From positions 434,001-498,000 of the forward strand of contig NZ_FOGD01000002.1 of NCBI RefSeq assembly GCF_900111115.1: a stretch of DNA of 64,000 bases, in the 5' to 3' direction. A program made the translations under genes and the position numbers. The first letter of the stretch is position 1; each line of letters begins with the position of its first letter. Source of the stretch: Giesbergeria anulus (GTDB lineage: Bacteria; Pseudomonadota; Gammaproteobacteria; Burkholderiales; Burkholderiaceae_C). This document shows positions 12,107-42,909 of the stretch, piece after piece. The notes below the pieces were generated by a model. The model saw only the letters and a list, made by a program, of their open reading frames with translations, searched no databases and was not told the DNA's origin.

Positions 12107-12187
12107 AGCGCAACATATCATCTTGTCATTCATATAAATGTCACATTTGACTTTTACATTGGGCACTTACCCTTACCAAGGATGACC

Positions 12188-12724
12188 ATGTTGCCCACTG
12201 CACGTCCGTTTTTTCTTTCGTCTGATCCGTTTGAATTTTTTCAGCAGCTCACACGCCAAACCTGTGAAAGCATGGTGCAAATTTCTACGCTCAATGTGCA
12301 AACCACACAGGCGGCCTTAGGCACACAAACACAGCATTGGACCAAACTGCTCCAAGTGCAACGCCCCGAAGAGTTAAGCGCTTTACAGGCCGATGTGGTG
12401 CAACCGCTCGCTAAGCAAGCCAGTCAGTACGGCCAGCAGCTCTACCAAATTGCCAACGATCTGGGGCAAGCCTGGCAAGTGCAGCCCAAGGCGGGGCTGG
12501 GTGATGTGTCTAGCCAGTGGGAGCGGATGCAAAGCAACATGGACAAAATGCTCAAAAATATGCCCGTGGCCGCCCAAGCCCTCAGCGCCAGCGTTAAAAA
12601 CCGCTTGGCTTCGGCCAACGAGGCCGTCAGTGCCATTCAGCAAGTTGTGACCCAAGCGAACAACGCCACCCAAGCTAACCTGTTGGCCGCAGTGGAAAGC
12701 ACAGCACACCCCGAAACGGCCTAA
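12188..12724 (+). CDS. Phasin family protein (PHA granule-associated)
   Basis: Phasins coat polyhydroxyalkanoate granules. The 178-residue product is almost wholly helical and Ala/Gln-rich, with the phasin-type opening F-E-F-F-Q-Q-L, an amphipathic middle and repeated heptad-like Ala/Val stretches. AAGGA at 12178-12182 sits five bases before the ATG at 12188 but overlaps the alternative ATG at 12182, so 12188 is preferred. The presence of PHA synthase about 25 kb away in this window fits. It converges with cheR. Confidence 0.82.
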   Translation: MLPTARPFFLSSDPFEFFQQLTRQTCESMVQISTLNVQTTQAALGTQTQHWTKLLQVQRPEELSALQADVVQPLAKQASQYGQQLYQIANDLGQAWQVQPKAGLGDVSSQWERMQSNMDKMLKNMPVAAQALSASVKNRLASANEAVSAIQQVVTQANNATQANLLAAVESTAHPETA

Positions 12725-36768: not shown

Positions 36769-36867
36769 TCTCTCCTGATCTTTTTTCCTTTTTACCTTGT
36801 GACAGTACGGTGCCACCCCTTTGCGGGTGCCACTGTGCTCTTAGTGTTGCCCGTTGTGGGTGCAGCA

Positions 36868-36924
36868 TTGTCATAGAACACTCATTTCTTTGTCATGGCT
36901 TTGTCGTGATCGGTGGCTTATTAT
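36868..36924 (+). promoter_or_regulatory. Candidate PhoB-dependent promoter: four 11-bp-spaced Pho half-sites and a -10 hexamer
   Basis: Half-sites begin at 36868, 36879, 36890 and 36901, exactly 11 bases apart: TTGTCAT, CACTCAT, TTGTCAT, TTGTCGT, each followed by a four-base spacer. They match the known PhoB element (CTGTCAT at 11-bp spacing) at 5 to 6 of 7 positions. A TATTAT hexamer at 36919-36924 lies 11 bases after the last half-site, where the -10 of PhoB promoters falls, while no -35 hexamer is needed. The 315-base gap 36769-37083 in front of phaC contains nothing else convincing. Confidence 0.78.
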
Positions 36925-36951: not shown

Positions 36952-36969
36952 GTGTCAAAGCAGTGTCAC
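36952..36969 (+). promoter_or_regulatory. Second Pho-box-like half-site pair
   Basis: GTGTCAA (36952-36958) and GTGTCAC (36963-36969) are again 11 bases apart and share the TGTCA core, 28 bases after the first promoter's -10. An AT-rich TTTTAAAA follows. It may be a second, weaker PhoB site. Confidence 0.4.
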
Positions 36970-37083
36970 ATCGGGGGGATTTTAAAAACCACCGGGTTCT
37001 TCACACGCTAAACGATATGTCAGTCATAAATGAAGTTTGGCATACTGCCTTTTTTGTAATGTATTGAGCCTGAAGGATTTGCA

Positions 37084-38898
37084 ATGGATAAAGCTAATGC
37101 CTCCTGTGTGCCGTTTGAACGTCAGCGCGAAGCTACCAAAGCGCTAGATGAGACGTTCCACGGTTTTCTGACACGCAGCACAATGGGCCTATCCCCCATT
37201 GCACTGGCGCTGGCAGCTGCTGATTGGGCCATGCACTTGGCCGCCTCTCCTGGCCGCCAGCTGGTGCTGGGCCAGCGGGCGCTGGCTTTGGGCCAACAAG
37301 CGCTGGCCAGCGCTGTGGCGCCCCCAGAGGACGAGCAAGGCCAGCCTATGGTCGATAACGACAACCGCTTTACCGATCCAAGCTGGCGTCAGTGGCCGTT
37401 CAGTGCACTCAAAGAAGGTTACAAAGCCAATAGCGCTTGGTGGCGCGAGGCGGTGCAGGTCGATGGCATGTCCCGCCACCACAGCCACATGGTGGAGTTT
37501 TTTAACCGCCAGATCATGGACACCTTTACCCCGTCCAACTGGTTATTGACCAACCCAGAGGCCCTGCACAAAGCCCAAGAAACCCAAGGCCAGAGCTTGG
37601 TACAAGGTTATGAGCATTTTGCAGACGACATGCGCAAGGCCGAAGTGGCCCGCAGTGCGCCCGAAACACTAGAGCCACTCACCTTTGCTGTAGGCAAGGA
37701 TGTAGCCATCACACCCGGCAAGGTGGTGTACCGCAACCACCTCATTGAGCTGATCCAATACAGCCCAACCACTGACAAAGTCTATCCAGAGCCGTTGCTC
37801 ATCGTGCCTTCGTGCATCATGAAGTACTACATTTTGGATTTGTCGCCGTCCAACTCGATGGTGCGCTACATGGTGGGCCAAGGCTACACCGTGTTCATCA
37901 TCTCTTGGCGCAACCCCGACGCCTCCGACCGCGATTTGGGTATGCAAGACTACCTGCACATGGGCGTGATGGATGCCTTGGCTGCCATCAAAGCGCGCAC
38001 CGGCGCACCGCGTGTCCATGCCTTGGGTTACTGCTTGGGTGGCACCTTCATGGCCATTGTGGCTGCTGCGATGGGGCGCCACACCCGCATGGCCCAAAAC
38101 TCTGGCAATGCCCGCCGCCGTGCCGAAGACCACCCAATGGATCGTCTGCCTCAGCTGGCCACCGTCACGCTGCTGGCGGCGCAAACCGACTTTACCGAGC
38201 CTGGTGAAATGGGAGTGTTCATTGACGATGAACAGCTCAAAACCCTGCGCCAGCAAATGGATCGCAAGGGCTATCTGCCCGGCAGCGCGATGGCCGGTTC
38301 GTTCCAGTTCCTGAATATGCGCGAGCTGGTGTTTATGCGCAACACGCGCCGCTACCTGCTGGGCCAAGATGAGGCCGACTTCGATCTGATGAGCTGGAAC
38401 GCCGATCTGACCCGCCTGCCCGCGCGGATGCACTCGGAGTACCTATCCTCGCTGTTCCTGAACAATGCGTTGGCTACCGGCAAATACCGGGTGGGTGGTC
38501 AAGCCGTTGCCCTGATGGATATTCATGCGCCCATGCTGGTGGTGGGCACCACGCGCGACCACGTCTCGCCTTGGCGCTCGGTGTACAAAATCCATTTGCA
38601 AACCGACACCCACGTTACCTTTGTGCTGGCCGCTGGCGGCCACAATGCCGGTATCGTCTCGGAGCCGGGGCGTCCACGGCGCAGCTACCAGATCAACAGC
38701 ATTGAAGACAACCAAGGCTGGACAGAGCCTGATGAGTGGCTGGCCAACGCCCCCACCCGCCAAGGCTCGTGGTGGGAAGCCATGGATGCGTGGCTCAAAG
38801 AGCGCTCGGGTGCGCCCGTGGCACCGCCCGCTATCGATCCTGCCAACGTACTCTGTGATGCCCCCGGCGAGTATGTGATGGTGCGCTATGTCGACTGA
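37084..38898 (+). CDS. phaC: Class I poly(3-hydroxyalkanoate) synthase
   Basis: PhaC polymerises (R)-3-hydroxyacyl-CoA into PHA granules. The 604-residue protein has an N-terminal non-conserved domain and an alpha/beta-hydrolase core with the lipase-like box GYCLGGT placing the nucleophile Cys near residue 317, the catalytic Asp in TTRDHVSPW near 491 and the His in GGHNAG near 519. PSCIMKYYILDLSP, the P-x-I-M-K-Y-Y-x-L-D-L consensus, is present. AAGGA precedes the ATG. It is the first gene after the Pho-like promoter and overlaps the next by 11 bases. Confidence 0.95.
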   Translation: MDKANASCVPFERQREATKALDETFHGFLTRSTMGLSPIALALAAADWAMHLAASPGRQLVLGQRALALGQQALASAVAPPEDEQGQPMVDNDNRFTDPSWRQWPFSALKEGYKANSAWWREAVQVDGMSRHHSHMVEFFNRQIMDTFTPSNWLLTNPEALHKAQETQGQSLVQGYEHFADDMRKAEVARSAPETLEPLTFAVGKDVAITPGKVVYRNHLIELIQYSPTTDKVYPEPLLIVPSCIMKYYILDLSPSNSMVRYMVGQGYTVFIISWRNPDASDRDLGMQDYLHMGVMDALAAIKARTGAPRVHALGYCLGGTFMAIVAAAMGRHTRMAQNSGNARRRAEDHPMDRLPQLATVTLLAAQTDFTEPGEMGVFIDDEQLKTLRQQMDRKGYLPGSAMAGSFQFLNMRELVFMRNTRRYLLGQDEADFDLMSWNADLTRLPARMHSEYLSSLFLNNALATGKYRVGGQAVALMDIHAPMLVVGTTRDHVSPWRSVYKIHLQTDTHVTFVLAAGGHNAGIVSEPGRPRRSYQINSIEDNQGWTEPDEWLANAPTRQGSWWEAMDAWLKERSGAPVAPPAIDPANVLCDAPGEYVMVRYVD

Positions 38899-39316
38899 GG
38901 AGATTCATCCCTCTGACGCCCACCTGACCGGCTATTTGCAGCGCATGAGCGAGTCGATTGAATCGATCAATGCGCGCATTGCCCGTTTGGCCACCACGTT
39001 AGACATCAATCTGCAAAACGAGAGCGAACTCAACGACGTACTCACCCAAAACGATGAGCGACCGCCCCCGGTCGAGCGGCGCAAACCCGGTGCAGCCCGC
39101 ACCGGCATGAGCCCAGAGCGGCGCAAATCCCATTTGCGCCAAGAGCTTCGCGCCTTGCTCGTGCTGCGCTATGGCGTAGCCACCCGTTACGTGGAGCAGG
39201 TGGGGGTAGATACCACCCGCCACATTTTGGTCAGCGCCCAAGACAAACTCGAACGCGAGGGCTTCAAGCCCGGTGCAGCCGGGGTTGACTTGCGGCGTGT
39301 ATTCAGTGGGCATTAG
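38888..39316 (+). CDS. Uncharacterised 142-residue protein coupled to phaC
   Basis: The ATG at 38888 overlaps the phaC end by 11 bases, so translation is probably coupled. The product is hydrophilic and charged: an N-terminal amphipathic helix (YLQRMSESIESINARIARLA) that could form a coiled coil, a Pro/Arg-rich linker near residue 58-80, and a basic C-terminal half (RRKSHLRQELRALL and KLEREGFKPGAAG). There is no signal peptide, membrane helix or known catalytic motif. Its place between phaC and the fabI-like gene suggests a role with the granule or synthase, but that is inference. Confidence 0.75.
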   Translation: MSTEEIHPSDAHLTGYLQRMSESIESINARIARLATTLDINLQNESELNDVLTQNDERPPPVERRKPGAARTGMSPERRKSHLRQELRALLVLRYGVATRYVEQVGVDTTRHILVSAQDKLEREGFKPGAAGVDLRRVFSGH

Positions 39317-39397
39317 CCCTTTTTTCTGGCACACCTTGTGCTTTGCCAGCAGACGCAGCGCCGCTGTGCCTGGCTTTTCTTTGGAGATTTTCCACCC

Positions 39398-40177
39398 ATG
39401 ACGCTCAACACATCCTCTTTCGGTCTGGCAGGCAAAAAAGGTTTGATTCTCGGTGTGGCCAACAACAGCAGCATTGCTTGGGGTTGCACCCAAGTCATGC
39501 ACCAGCTTGGTGCTGATCTGGTGGTCTCCTGCCTGAACGAAAAGGCCCGTCGCTTTGTCGAGCCACTGACCGATCCTTTGGGCGTGGAGCTGGTCAATTG
39601 CAACGTCGAGGGCGAAGGCGAACTCGAAGCCACCGTGGCGCGTGCTGTAGAGCGCTTGGGACATCTGGACTTTGTGGTGCACTCGATTGCTTGGGCACCA
39701 CTGGAAGACCTGCACGGTGATGTGATTGACAGCTCCAGCGAGGGCTTTGCCCGCGCCATGAATGTCTCTTGCCACTCCTTTGCCCGTTTGGCCAAACTGT
39801 GCGCGCCGCACATGCGCAATGGTGGCGCGATGCTGAGCATGACCTACCTCGGTGCCGATGAGGCCGTGCCCCATTACGGCCTGATGGGGCCAGTGAAGGC
39901 TGCACTCGAATCCCTGACGCGCTATATGGCGATGGAACTGGGCCCTCAAGCCATCCGCGTTCATGCTGTATCGCCCGGCCCCATCCTGACCCGTGCCGCC
40001 TCCGGTATTGCCAGCTTTGACGACCTGATGGCCCACGCCGCTGAGAAGTCTCCACTCAAGCGTCTGGTCAGACTGGAAGAAATCGCCAATCTGTGCGCCT
40101 TCCTGTGCTCGGACGCTGCCTCGGGCATGACCGGCCAGACCATCTATGTCGATGGTGGTTGCCACGCGATGGCCTAA
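39398..40177 (+). CDS. Enoyl-ACP reductase-like short-chain dehydrogenase (FabI family)
   Basis: The ATG at 39398 gives 259 residues, a FabI-length SDR. It has the FabI-type nucleotide motif GVANNSSIAWG rather than TGxxxGxG, and the catalytic Tyr, Tyr and Lys in MTYLGADEAVPHYGLMGPVK (near residues 149, 159 and 166), followed by RYMAMELGPQAIRVHAVSPG and FLCSDAASGMTGQTIYVDGG. Family knowledge says it reduces trans-2-enoyl-ACP or -CoA. Its position in a PHA/phosphotransacylase operon and not in a fatty acid locus suggests a paralogue with a special role. Confidence 0.88.
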   Translation: MTLNTSSFGLAGKKGLILGVANNSSIAWGCTQVMHQLGADLVVSCLNEKARRFVEPLTDPLGVELVNCNVEGEGELEATVARAVERLGHLDFVVHSIAWAPLEDLHGDVIDSSSEGFARAMNVSCHSFARLAKLCAPHMRNGGAMLSMTYLGADEAVPHYGLMGPVKAALESLTRYMAMELGPQAIRVHAVSPGPILTRAASGIASFDDLMAHAAEKSPLKRLVRLEEIANLCAFLCSDAASGMTGQTIYVDGGCHAMA

Positions 40178-40230: not shown

Positions 40231-41661
40231 ATGAACATGGCAACCCCCACCGCTGAATGGATGGAAAACGTCACCTTTGACGAGATGAGCGTTGGCCAAA
40301 GTGCCCGCTTGGTGCGCACGGTCACGCAGGCCGACATTGAAGCCTTTGCCGCCGTGTCCGGCGACATTAACCCGGCCCACCTGAACCCCGAATACGCCGA
40401 TGCCACCATGTTCCACGGCGTGATCGCCCATGGCATGCTGGGCGCAGCGCTGATCTCGGCACTGTTTGGCACTCAGTTCCCCGGCCCCGGCACCATCTAC
40501 TTGGGCCAAGAGCTCAAGTTCACCAAGCCAGTGCGTATTGGTGACACGCTCACCGTCAGCGCCACCGTGTCCGAAAAAGACGACGAGAAAAAGCGCGTCA
40601 AAATGAGCTGCCTGGTCACCAACCAAAAGGGTGAAACCGTGCTCAAGGGCGATGCTAATTTGATGCCGCCCACCACCAAGGTGCGGGTGGAAAAAATCAA
40701 CGCACCACAAATCCAACTGTTTGATCCTGAAGCGCGCTTCAATGAGCTGCTGGCCCGCGCCGAAGGCTTGGAGGCGGTGCGCTGCGCGGTGGTGCATCCC
40801 TGCGATGAAGGCTCGCTCAGTGGCGCGATGGACGCTGCCCGCCACGGCCTGATCGTGCCGGTGCTGATTGGCCCCGAAGCCCGCATCCGCCAACTGGCTA
40901 CCCAGTTTGAGATTGATCTGACGGGTGCTGAAATCATCTCGGTCGAGCACAGCCACGCCGCTGCTGAGTTGGCCGCCAGTATGGCCGCCAAGGGCCAAGT
41001 GGAAGTGCTGATGAAGGGCAGCTTGCACACCGATGAGCTGCTGCACGCCGTGCTGTCGCAGCCCAGCTTGCGCACAGGCCGTCGCATGTCGCATGTGTTC
41101 CGCTTTGATGTGCCGCTGTACCCCAAGCCGCTGCTGATTACCGATGCCGCTTTGAACATCGAGCCTACGCTGGCCGAGAAAGTGGACATTATCCAAAACG
41201 CCATCAATTTTGCCCATGTGATGGGCGTAGCCAACCCCAAAGTGGCTATTTTGGCCGCCGTAGAAACAGTCAGCCCCAATATGCGCTCGACGCTGGATGC
41301 AGCGGCGCTGTGCAAGATGGCCGACCGGGGCCAAATCAAGGGCGGTGTACTCGATGGCCCCTTGGCTTTTGACAACGCCATCTCGCCAGAAGCTGTGCAA
41401 ATCAAGCATATCCAATCGCCGGTGGCAGGCCACGCCGACATTTTGGCCGTCCCCGATCTGGAAAGCGGCAATATGCTGGCCAAGCAGCTCGAATATCTGG
41501 CCGGTGCCTCCGGTTCTGGTTTGGTGCTGGGTGCCCGTGTGCCAATTGCCCTCACCAGCCGCGCCGACGGCCCCATGAGCCGCGTGGCTTCGGCCCTGCT
41601 GGCGGTGTTGGCTGCCCACGCGGCGCGCGCAGCCAAGGCCGCTTCTATTCCTACTGCTTAA
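40231..41661 (+). CDS. Bifunctional (R)-specific enoyl-CoA hydratase/phosphate acetyl(butyryl)transferase
   Basis: A fusion of 476 residues. The N-terminal MaoC-like hot-dog domain (about 1-150) has the hydratase residues D45 and H50 in SGDINPAHLN, followed by HGVIAHGMLGAALIS. From about residue 165 a phosphotransacylase domain starts (PTA_PTB family) with DAARHGLIVPVLIGP, GQVEVLMKGSLHTDELL, the VFRFDVPLYPK segment, ITDAALNIEP and GVANPKVAIL, matching phosphate acetyl/butyryltransferases. It can hydrate enoyl-CoA to the PHA monomer and exchange acyl-CoA with phosphate. AAGGA precedes the ATG; ackA follows after nine bases. Confidence 0.93.
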   Translation: MNMATPTAEWMENVTFDEMSVGQSARLVRTVTQADIEAFAAVSGDINPAHLNPEYADATMFHGVIAHGMLGAALISALFGTQFPGPGTIYLGQELKFTKPVRIGDTLTVSATVSEKDDEKKRVKMSCLVTNQKGETVLKGDANLMPPTTKVRVEKINAPQIQLFDPEARFNELLARAEGLEAVRCAVVHPCDEGSLSGAMDAARHGLIVPVLIGPEARIRQLATQFEIDLTGAEIISVEHSHAAAELAASMAAKGQVEVLMKGSLHTDELLHAVLSQPSLRTGRRMSHVFRFDVPLYPKPLLITDAALNIEPTLAEKVDIIQNAINFAHVMGVANPKVAILAAVETVSPNMRSTLDAAALCKMADRGQIKGGVLDGPLAFDNAISPEAVQIKHIQSPVAGHADILAVPDLESGNMLAKQLEYLAGASGSGLVLGARVPIALTSRADGPMSRVASALLAVLAAHAARAAKAASIPTA

Positions 41662-41670
41662 GGTCGTCTT

Positions 41671-42909
41671 ATGGCTATTCTTGCTGTAAATGCGGGGTCA
41701 TCGTCGCTGAAGTTCTCTTTGCATCCATTACAAGATGGCGGCAAGGTGCAGCCCAGCGTACTTAACGGCTGTATCGAGGGCCTAGAGCCGGGCGGTACAC
41801 CGCAAATGGACTGGACTTTTGCCGGCCAGCGCCACCAAGAAACCATCACCACGCCCGGCGAGTCGTCCTTTCAGCGTGCGCTGGCCCGCCTGCGCGTGCT
41901 ACTGGGCGAGCTGGAAGGCGCGCCCACCATCAAGGCGGTGGCGCACCGGGTGGTGCATGGCGGCCAAGCGTTCAAGCAGAGCGTGGTGGTGGCTGGCACC
42001 GTGCTAGAGCAGCTCGAAAGCCTGAACTCGATGGCACCACTGCACCAGCCGCACAACTTGGCCGGTATCCGCTCGTTCCAGCAGGCTTTCCCCAACCTGC
42101 CGCAGGTGGCCTGTTTTGATACGGCCTTCCATACCAGCTTGCCGGATGTGGCCAGCGCCTTTGCACTACCGCAATCGCTGACCGAACAAGGCGTGCGCCG
42201 CTATGGTTTTCATGGGTTGTCTTACCACTACATCATGGACACCCTGCTAGAGCAATCGCCCCGCGCCACAGGCCGGGTGCTGATGGCCCACTTGGGCAAC
42301 GGTGCTAGCCTGTGTGCTGCTGTGGCTGGGCGCAGCTGTGCCACCACCATGGGCTTCTCGGCTCTGGATGGCTTGATGATGGGCACCCGCAGTGGCACAT
42401 TGGATGCCGGTGTGCTGCTGTACCTGATGGAGCAGGGCTGGGACCACGACCGCATCCAAAAGCTGCTCTACAAGCAAAGCGGCTTGCTGGGCGTGTCGGG
42501 CATTTCTGCCGATATGCGCCGCTTGCGCGCCGATGGCAGCGAGGCCGCACAGCGCGCCATCGACCAGTTCACTTACCGTGTAGTGCGTGAATCGGGGGCC
42601 TTGATTGCCAGCATGGGCGGCTTGGATGTGCTGGCCTTCAGTGGCGGTATTGGCGAGCATGATGCCGTGCTGCGGGCACAGGTGTGTGAGCGCTTGGGCT
42701 GGCTGGGGGTGGAAATTGATGCTGGCCGCAATGCTGAAGCCACGCGCGATGCCATCAGCGCCATCCATACGTCCGGCAGCAGCATGGAGGTGTGGGTGAT
42801 TCCTACCGATGAGGGTCGTGTGGCTGCCCGCGAGGCCGCTACCCTGTTGCACCAAGGTGACGATGAGCCTGAACAGGCACAGGAGCTGGCGCTAGAAGGC
42901 ATCGAGTAA
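41671..42909 (+). CDS. ackA: Acetate kinase
   Basis: AckA interconverts acetyl phosphate plus ADP with acetate plus ATP. The 412-residue protein has NAGSSSLKFSLHP at the start, RVVHGG, DTAFHTSLPDVASAFALP, YGFHGLSYHYI with the conserved His, AHLGNGASL, DGLMMGTRSGTLD, FSGGIGEHDAVLR and the C-terminal PTDEGRVAAREA, all family signatures. Next to the phosphotransacylase it can turn acyl phosphate into ATP. The gene is the last of the operon; a strong terminator follows 22 bases after the stop. Confidence 0.96.
   Translation: MAILAVNAGSSSLKFSLHPLQDGGKVQPSVLNGCIEGLEPGGTPQMDWTFAGQRHQETITTPGESSFQRALARLRVLLGELEGAPTIKAVAHRVVHGGQAFKQSVVVAGTVLEQLESLNSMAPLHQPHNLAGIRSFQQAFPNLPQVACFDTAFHTSLPDVASAFALPQSLTEQGVRRYGFHGLSYHYIMDTLLEQSPRATGRVLMAHLGNGASLCAAVAGRSCATTMGFSALDGLMMGTRSGTLDAGVLLYLMEQGWDHDRIQKLLYKQSGLLGVSGISADMRRLRADGSEAAQRAIDQFTYRVVRESGALIASMGGLDVLAFSGGIGEHDAVLRAQVCERLGWLGVEIDAGRNAEATRDAISAIHTSGSSMEVWVIPTDEGRVAAREAATLLHQGDDEPEQAQELALEGIE

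Follow-up and report, generated by a model that had tools for sequence, protein, structure and literature searches.

Predicted PhoB sites upstream of a polyhydroxyalkanoate synthase gene set in Giesbergeria anulus

Direct repeats that resemble PhoB half-sites lie upstream of a polyhydroxyalkanoate (PHA) synthase gene, phaC, in Giesbergeria anulus, and raise the question of whether this gene and those that follow it are under phosphate control. The window analysed, to which coordinates without a contig or locus prefix refer, is a 64,000-nucleotide stretch of contig NZ_FOGD01000002.1. In the original prediction, four repeats in this window were held to drive a PHA/phosphotransacylase operon. The results presented below make it likely that positions 36868-36924 serve as a distal promoter (P1), activated by PhoB, for the gene set phaC-orf142-fabI-phaJ/pta-ackA, as predicted from their sequence.

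Half-sites and PhoB

The four 7-mers, TTGTCAT, CACTCAT, TTGTCAT and TTGTCGT, which start at 36868, 36879, 36890 and 36901, and the TATTAT downstream of them were found exactly where they had originally been placed, and the identity of the next gene as a PHA synthase was borne out by profile matches (Table 1). The repeats are 11-base direct repeats of a TGTCA-type half-site, of which repeat 2 is weak and repeat 4 reads TGTCG, and a -10 box of the form TAnnAT was noted shortly downstream of the last half-site in each of the four genomes that carry the motif. The array was not upheld as a four-repeat unit: the overlapping pair formed by the half-sites at 36879 and 36890 scored just 4.3 bits with a matrix derived from pstS promoters, and the conserved part consists of repeats 3 and 4 only, repeat 1 being present in two of the four genomes. 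The earlier list of sites, although correct, had also overlooked the pair at 36952-36969 and the minus-strand site at 36799-36816. The former pair resembles the box upstream of the genome's own pstS (GTGTCAC-AACG-GTGTCAC) and was not conserved in three aligned relatives. The conserved unit is the pair at 36890-36907, with 36868 as an accessory half-site and 36952-36969 as a separate, non-conserved pair.

PhoB is encoded in the genome (332.5 bits, family cut-off 296.2) by a gene that adjoins phoR, phoU and pstB, these being named by eye from their translations. The pstS gene, the box of which is followed after 10 bases by TAGAGT, lies about 3.6 kb from this group. Other OmpR-type regulators are also encoded.

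Table 1. Predicted regulatory elements and genes of the window
Feature	Position	Strand	Remarks
Predicted Pho-type promoter of phasin gene: CATTCAT-ATAA-ATGTCAC, 10 bases, TACATT	12127..12160	+	12.7 bits; no ORF over it
Phasin gene	12182..12724	+	Phasin_2, 47.8 bits
Pho-box-like site GTGGCACCGTACTGTCAC	36799..36816	-	12.8 bits; one of four-site cluster
Repeat 1 TTGTCAT and repeat 2 CACTCAT, linker AGAA	36868..36885	+	Pho-box-like pair; 10.9 bits (pstS-derived matrix)
Repeat 3 TTGTCAT and repeat 4 TTGTCGT, linker GGCT; core Pho box	36890..36907	+	10.5 bits; kept in the four nearest species
TATTAT, probable -10 box of P1	36919..36924	+	11 bases after TGTCGT; same place in four species
Extra Pho-box pair GTGTCAA-AGCA-GTGTCAC	36952..36969	+	10.6 bits; then TTTTAA at spacing 10
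P2, proximal promoter-like element: TGTCAGTC ... TTTGG-CATACT (CATACT 37041-37046)	37018..37046	+	Second island of alignment A1
phaC, PHA synthase (class I-like)	37084..38898	+	PhaC_N 196 bits, PHBC_N 58 bits
orf142, 142-aa protein overlapping phaC end	38888..39316	+	Beside phaC in orthologous loci except L084
Hairpin then T-rich tract, terminator- or attenuator-like	39345..39374	+	Directly before fabI ribosome site
fabI-type enoyl-ACP reductase	39398..40177	+	NF005717 366 bits, cut-off 337; start codon picked by eye
phaJ/pta fusion, MaoC-type enoyl-CoA hydratase and phosphate acetyl/butyryltransferase	40231..41661	+	NF006045 711 bits, cut-off 282
ackA, acetate/propionate kinase family	41671..42909	+	TIGR00016 343 bits, cut-off 293

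Rarity and clustering of the sites

Scans of both strands were performed on an 848-kb sample of the genome (3,420,562 bases in all) that comprised the whole of contig C18 and positions 1-220000 of contig C14. Scored as four 7-mers spaced 11 bases apart against YTGTCAY (maximum 28), the array reached 25 and was the sole place in the sample at or above 23. Since 5 of 200 shuffled half-site motifs also reached at least 25 somewhere (20 reached at least 23), the array by itself is suggestive rather than decisive.

The matrix consisted of 27 distinct sites from the upstream regions of 30 pstS genes (that of this genome and 29 from relatives), among which a few were weak and had been picked automatically, with the own genome left out and with G004 (a Giesbergeria sp. 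MAG) and G001 (Simplicispira metamorpha DSM 1837) included in training. The own pstS box scored 17.4 bits as opposed to 10.9, 10.5 and 10.6 bits for the pairs at 36868, 36890 and 36952. With both array pairs counted in, 25 of 1,695,640 positions equalled or exceeded the pair 36868+36879 and 29 the pair 36890+36901. At least three matrix sites per 200 bp occurred at two places in the 848 kb, one before pstS and the other before phaC, with thresholds of 8, 9 and 10 bits alike; some sites of the pstS cluster overlap one another, and both clusters persisted after overlaps were merged. In 60 runs with column-permuted matrices, any such cluster was seen in 0, 1 and 4 runs when the best 40, 60 and 81 sites, respectively, were taken. 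Thus, in the matrix scan that had been put forward as a check, the fit to the group's Pho-box matrix was above background and chance for the cluster, whereas the pairs taken singly (4.3-10.9 bits, and 25-29 equal or better positions for each of the three forward pairs) were moderate and unconvincing.

Among 14 top matrix matches examined, 11 lay within ORFs or before genes that have no obvious connection with phosphate, and these are regarded as chance matches. The best match of the sample (19.0 bits at C18:340456-340473, also contained in L203) has the form TGTCAC-N10-TAGGCT and lies just upstream of an EAL/GGDEF gene, a location that makes phosphate control of cyclic-di-GMP through this site possible. 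A site of 12.3 bits was noted at C14:103733-103750, before a DUF47/PhoU-like gene named by eye.

The strict pattern TGTCRY-N5-TGTCRY gave 4 matches in the 3.42-Mb genome compared with 14 for the reversed control; these were located upstream of pstS, in the phaC array (36890-36907) and, in two cases, within genes. In the relatives G001, G004 and G009, the pattern gave 5, 7 and 7 matches (controls 11, 7 and 12) and in all three matched upstream of both phaC and pstS. Besides these 3 phaC and 3 pstS matches, the 19 included one before the polyphosphate kinase gene (ppk) of G009 and, in the same genome, a further one on the strand opposite the pstS box and 72 bases away from it; the 11 others belonged to neither phaC, pstS nor ppk, and 10 of them lay under at least one ORF.

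These results bear on the view that a T-rich intergenic stretch mimics Pho boxes by chance, which is highly improbable. The frequency of single pairs as good as those of the array, and of shuffled motifs that attain the array score, would be compatible with it; the clustering, the genome-wide rarity and the conservation in four species described below already disfavour it. Four adjacent half-sites had been thought sufficient to make chance unlikely; the array alone fell short of this, and it was the clustering together with conservation that exceeded chance.

Conservation and promoter geometry

Conservation was assessed among phaC orthologues of at least 66% identity with upstream DNA, which represent 16 distinct genomes after nine duplicate locus pairs were merged; G007, with no upstream DNA, was left out and L080 was counted with only 246 bases upstream. 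The motif TTGTCAY-N4-YTGTCGY-N11-TAnnAT was exact in 4 of the 16, these being the four closest (82-100% identity): the own genome, G004, G001 and G009. The same four had a forward matrix site of at least 8 bits within 400 bases upstream, and the other 12 had no matrix site of that score in this interval (246 bases for L080). Among 19 more distant phaC loci (L021-L039), a single site was found, on the minus strand of L031.

Core-box scores were 15.4 bits for G004, 11.3 for G001 and 17.4 for G009, that of the own genome (10.5 bits) being the lowest. Repeat 1 was kept in the own genome and G004 and absent at that place in G001 and G009, and the -10 boxes of the four species (TATTAT, TACCAT, TAGCAT and TACCAT) occupied the same place. 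Two clear conserved islands, the Pho motif and GTCAGTC ... TTTGGCATACT, stood out between diverged flanks in the four-species alignment (A1). On its upstream side the region borders on a co-directional gene for a ligase in the own genome and G004 and on a divergently oriented gene for an ABC-type ATPase (named by eye) in G001 and G009; thus, the box stays with phaC while the neighbour differs. The phaC-pta-ackA set may thus have come under Pho control, or remained under it, in a single small clade. Taken together, the rarity of the strict pattern, the clustering at pstS and phaC only in the 848-kb sample and the conservation in the four closest orthologues make control by PhoB likely. The matches before the phasin, DUF47/PhoU-like and ppk genes also speak for it; against it stand the 11 of 14 top matrix matches and 11 of 19 strict matches that have no such assignment, and the 12 orthologues that lack a site.

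The pstS promoters found across the genus, the family and the order share with the phaC box TGTCAY half-sites 11 bases apart and a TA-type -10 box. The two differ in that the second half-site is TGTCA-type for pstS, with 10 bases to the -10 box in all 22 distinct strict boxes (found in 23 of 30 upstream regions, one duplicate removed), as opposed to TGTCG and 11 bases for phaC in 4 of 4 genomes. The statement that TATTAT is placed as in PhoB promoters therefore could not be maintained for promoters of the pstS type, in which TAnnnT follows after exactly 10 bases, an arrangement found in the phasin promoter at 12127-12160 and lacking in the phaC box. The ppk box of G009 and the DUF47 box of the own genome are likewise without TAnnnT at 10 bases, so that the spacing of 10 is possibly a habit of pstS. 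Because of both its TGTCG half-site and its spacing, P1 is possibly weak.

The same two features are unlike pstS in a way that another OmpR-family regulator using 11-base direct repeats might explain, and the genome does encode regulators of this type. Binding of such a protein in place of PhoB is nevertheless improbable, since the pstS boxes of the group are themselves built of TGTCA half-sites at 11-base intervals and a matrix derived from pstS picks out the phaC upstream region.

The CATACT of P2, which lies closer to phaC than P1 does, was present in 14 of the 16 distinct orthologue upstream regions (missing from L080 and L084), so that phaC most likely has two promoters; P2 may carry most phaC transcription. 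Scans with a sigma-70 consensus gave no forward promoter near 36919 or 37041, and the assignment of P1 and P2 rests on conservation. Just upstream of the P2 CATACT, an inverted repeat, ACTGACC-N4-GGTCAGT, was noted in just 2 of the 16 genomes, S. metamorpha (L074) and G009 (L085), where it lies 78 and 75 bases, respectively, from the start of phaC, with a remnant at 37018-37025 of the window; it looks like a putative operator for some regulator.

The wide occurrence of CATACT compared with the Pho motif (14 as opposed to 4 of 16 orthologues) would fit a situation in which the sites are PhoB sites but minor or decaying ones, phaC being driven mainly by P2 and P1 adding little in this species. 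The own core box, the weakest of the four and at spacing 11 rather than 10, points the same way, whereas conservation of the core box and TAnnAT in four species despite diverged flanks, and the extra pair at 36952 in the own genome, speak for functional sites. This reading, which overlaps with that of a PhoB-activated P1 and does not exclude it, is possible but on the unlikely side.

Downstream genes, the phasin gene and phosphate

The synthase matched TIGR01838 with 505 bits, under the cut-off of that family (622.65), and orf142 had no Pfam or NCBIfam match (E 0.001). MaoC and PTA_PTB domains were identified in the phaJ/pta fusion, and pta, ackA and fabI are adjacent on one strand, as in an operon of the Sinorhizobium meliloti kind. 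A motif scan detected the hairpin at 39345-39374 in the own locus and 5 of 15 orthologue loci, L079 and L084 being possibly without this gap. Across these six loci, which were chosen by eye before alignment, a two-sided compensatory change was seen in 2 of 10 hairpin pairs. Since terminator-like sites occur at about the shuffled rate in simple scans (9 compared with 6.2 expected, and 1 compared with 0.8), the call rests on conservation in the six loci, which points to a terminator- or attenuator-like element between orf142 and fabI. Because this hairpin separates the two genes, read-through into fabI-phaJ/pta-ackA is an assumption. The proposal that the array drives the operon could not be retained as written, given the closer CATACT in 14 of 16 orthologues and the hairpin. 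As for phosphate control of the downstream genes, PhoB sites before phaC are well supported by rarity, the pstS matrix, the presence of PhoB and four species, and control would extend to fabI-phaJ/pta-ackA by read-through.

A sample of 120 genomes contained 21 loci outside the family with a full-length phaJ/pta fusion, of which 20 were read (G065 was left out) over approximately 7.5-8 kb upstream, minus-strand sites being listed only from 12 bits. A forward site of at least 10 bits less than 200 bases before phaJ/pta was found in just 1 of the 20 (L221), and order-wide Pho control of the phaJ/pta-ackA set was rejected. The comparison is loose and not one of the same operon, since phaC was found in only one of these stretches (L219, downstream). 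The scarcity of close sites fits local rewiring, though those loci are not phaC-led. One minus-strand site of 22.5 bits, L208:7167-7184, lies before fabI of the fabI-phaJ/pta-ackA set but faces a gene on the other side that runs divergently and was named by eye as polyphosphate-kinase-2-like.

The pattern TGTCAY-N10-TANANT gave 6 matches in the genome compared with 3 for its control, and a fitting upstream half-site was present only for pstS (17.4 bits) and the phasin gene (12.7 bits), the other four scoring below 0. Among 30 phasin loci of the genus, 5 of them with a short flank, a forward site of at least 8 bits was found in 4: the own locus, that of the near-identical relative G007 (TATATT at 10 bases), that of a different phasin on the same contig as phaC in G009 (TAGATT at 10 bases) and L165, where no -10 box follows. 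The phasin orthologue of G004 (54% identical) scored less than 8 bits, although CATTCAT-GGCT-TTGTCAT followed after 10 bases by TAGAGT was recognized by eye. Neither the second phaC of the genome (C14:370545, L202) nor phasin locus L199 had a site of 9 bits; L187 had none of 8 bits, and L201 had one minus-strand site of 9.8 bits. According to excerpts of PMC6995625, the Pseudomonas putida phasin PhaF rose in carbon- and phosphorus-limited culture, and no Pho box is described for phaF in these excerpts.

The phosphate link, originally regarded as novel, is of a kind already in print. Summers 1999, as cited in the excerpted text of PMC8231600, reported PhoB control of the ORF-pta-ack-fabI operon of S. 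meliloti, which resembles the present locus in that Pta, acetate kinase and FabI genes occur together. Here, in a betaproteobacterium, phaC and orf142 lead, the order is fabI-pta-ackA and pta is fused to a MaoC hydratase, and PhoB control is predicted from sequence, the Pho motif being found for 4 of the 16 orthologues. For the Acinetobacter pha locus, Schembri 1995, according to part of PMC7204398, reported two start points, two potential Pho boxes and a requirement for PhoB and phosphate limitation. Potential boxes, more than one of them, precede a PHA locus here too; the lineage and gene set differ, and the PhoB requirement reported there stands against predicted sites here. The excerpts of PMC8231600 also describe a phaC-pta-ack-fabI group (D1) of Burkholderia sensu lato with a phaJ/pta fusion, and those of PMC8222739 describe Herbaspirillum seropedicae phaC2 as co-expressed with pta-ackA, this set and phosphate genes showing higher expression with 50 mM phosphate than with 5 mM. 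Both are gene sets of the same kind, and no Pho box is described for them in these excerpts; in that of PMC5127829, phosphotransacetylase appears only in the reference list. A Pho box before phaC or phasin genes of Simplicispira, Giesbergeria or Acidovorax was not found in the open-licence literature as partly accessible, which is weak evidence of absence, nor was any paper there that linked Comamonadaceae with a Pho box. Phosphate control of such gene sets is therefore in print, and the sites of this clade and that of the phasin gene were not found in the accessible print.

Returning to P1 as a PhoB-activated promoter, we infer the following course, from PhoB binding and the sign of the regulation to the two start points, transcription continuing into fabI-phaJ/pta-ackA, and the physiology. 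When phosphate is short, PhoR would phosphorylate PhoB, which would bind the direct repeats at 36890-36907, assisted by the half-site at 36868 and perhaps also by the 36952 pair, and recruit RNA polymerase to TATTAT; the transcript would start at about 36931 and have a leader of approximately 150 bases, while P2 would provide a phosphate-independent level. The phasin gene at 12182 is probably PhoB-induced too, so that synthase and granule coat would rise together and surplus acetyl and acyl groups would enter PHA when lack of phosphate stops growth. It is possible but unlikely that a small Simplicispira/Giesbergeria-type clade placed PHA storage as a whole, with the synthase operon and one or more phasins, under the PhoB regulon; PhoB would then form a feedback loop with what may be the source of its own phosphate, and carbon would be diverted to polymer. 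The feedback part leans on Wanner and Wilmes-Riesenberg 1992, by its title, and on excerpts of PMC8222739.

Similar links between phosphate and PHA are known in other bacteria, and these phaC sites are seen in a few close relatives only. The predicted promoter provides a concrete candidate route from phosphate limitation to more PHA making in this bacterial family, and one that is open to test because the box is carried by S. metamorpha DSM 1837, a named strain of a culture collection. Of note are also the phasin gene, with a predicted promoter of similar kind, and the clade-restricted conservation. Polymer making is probably raised under phosphate shortage in this Simplicispira relative.
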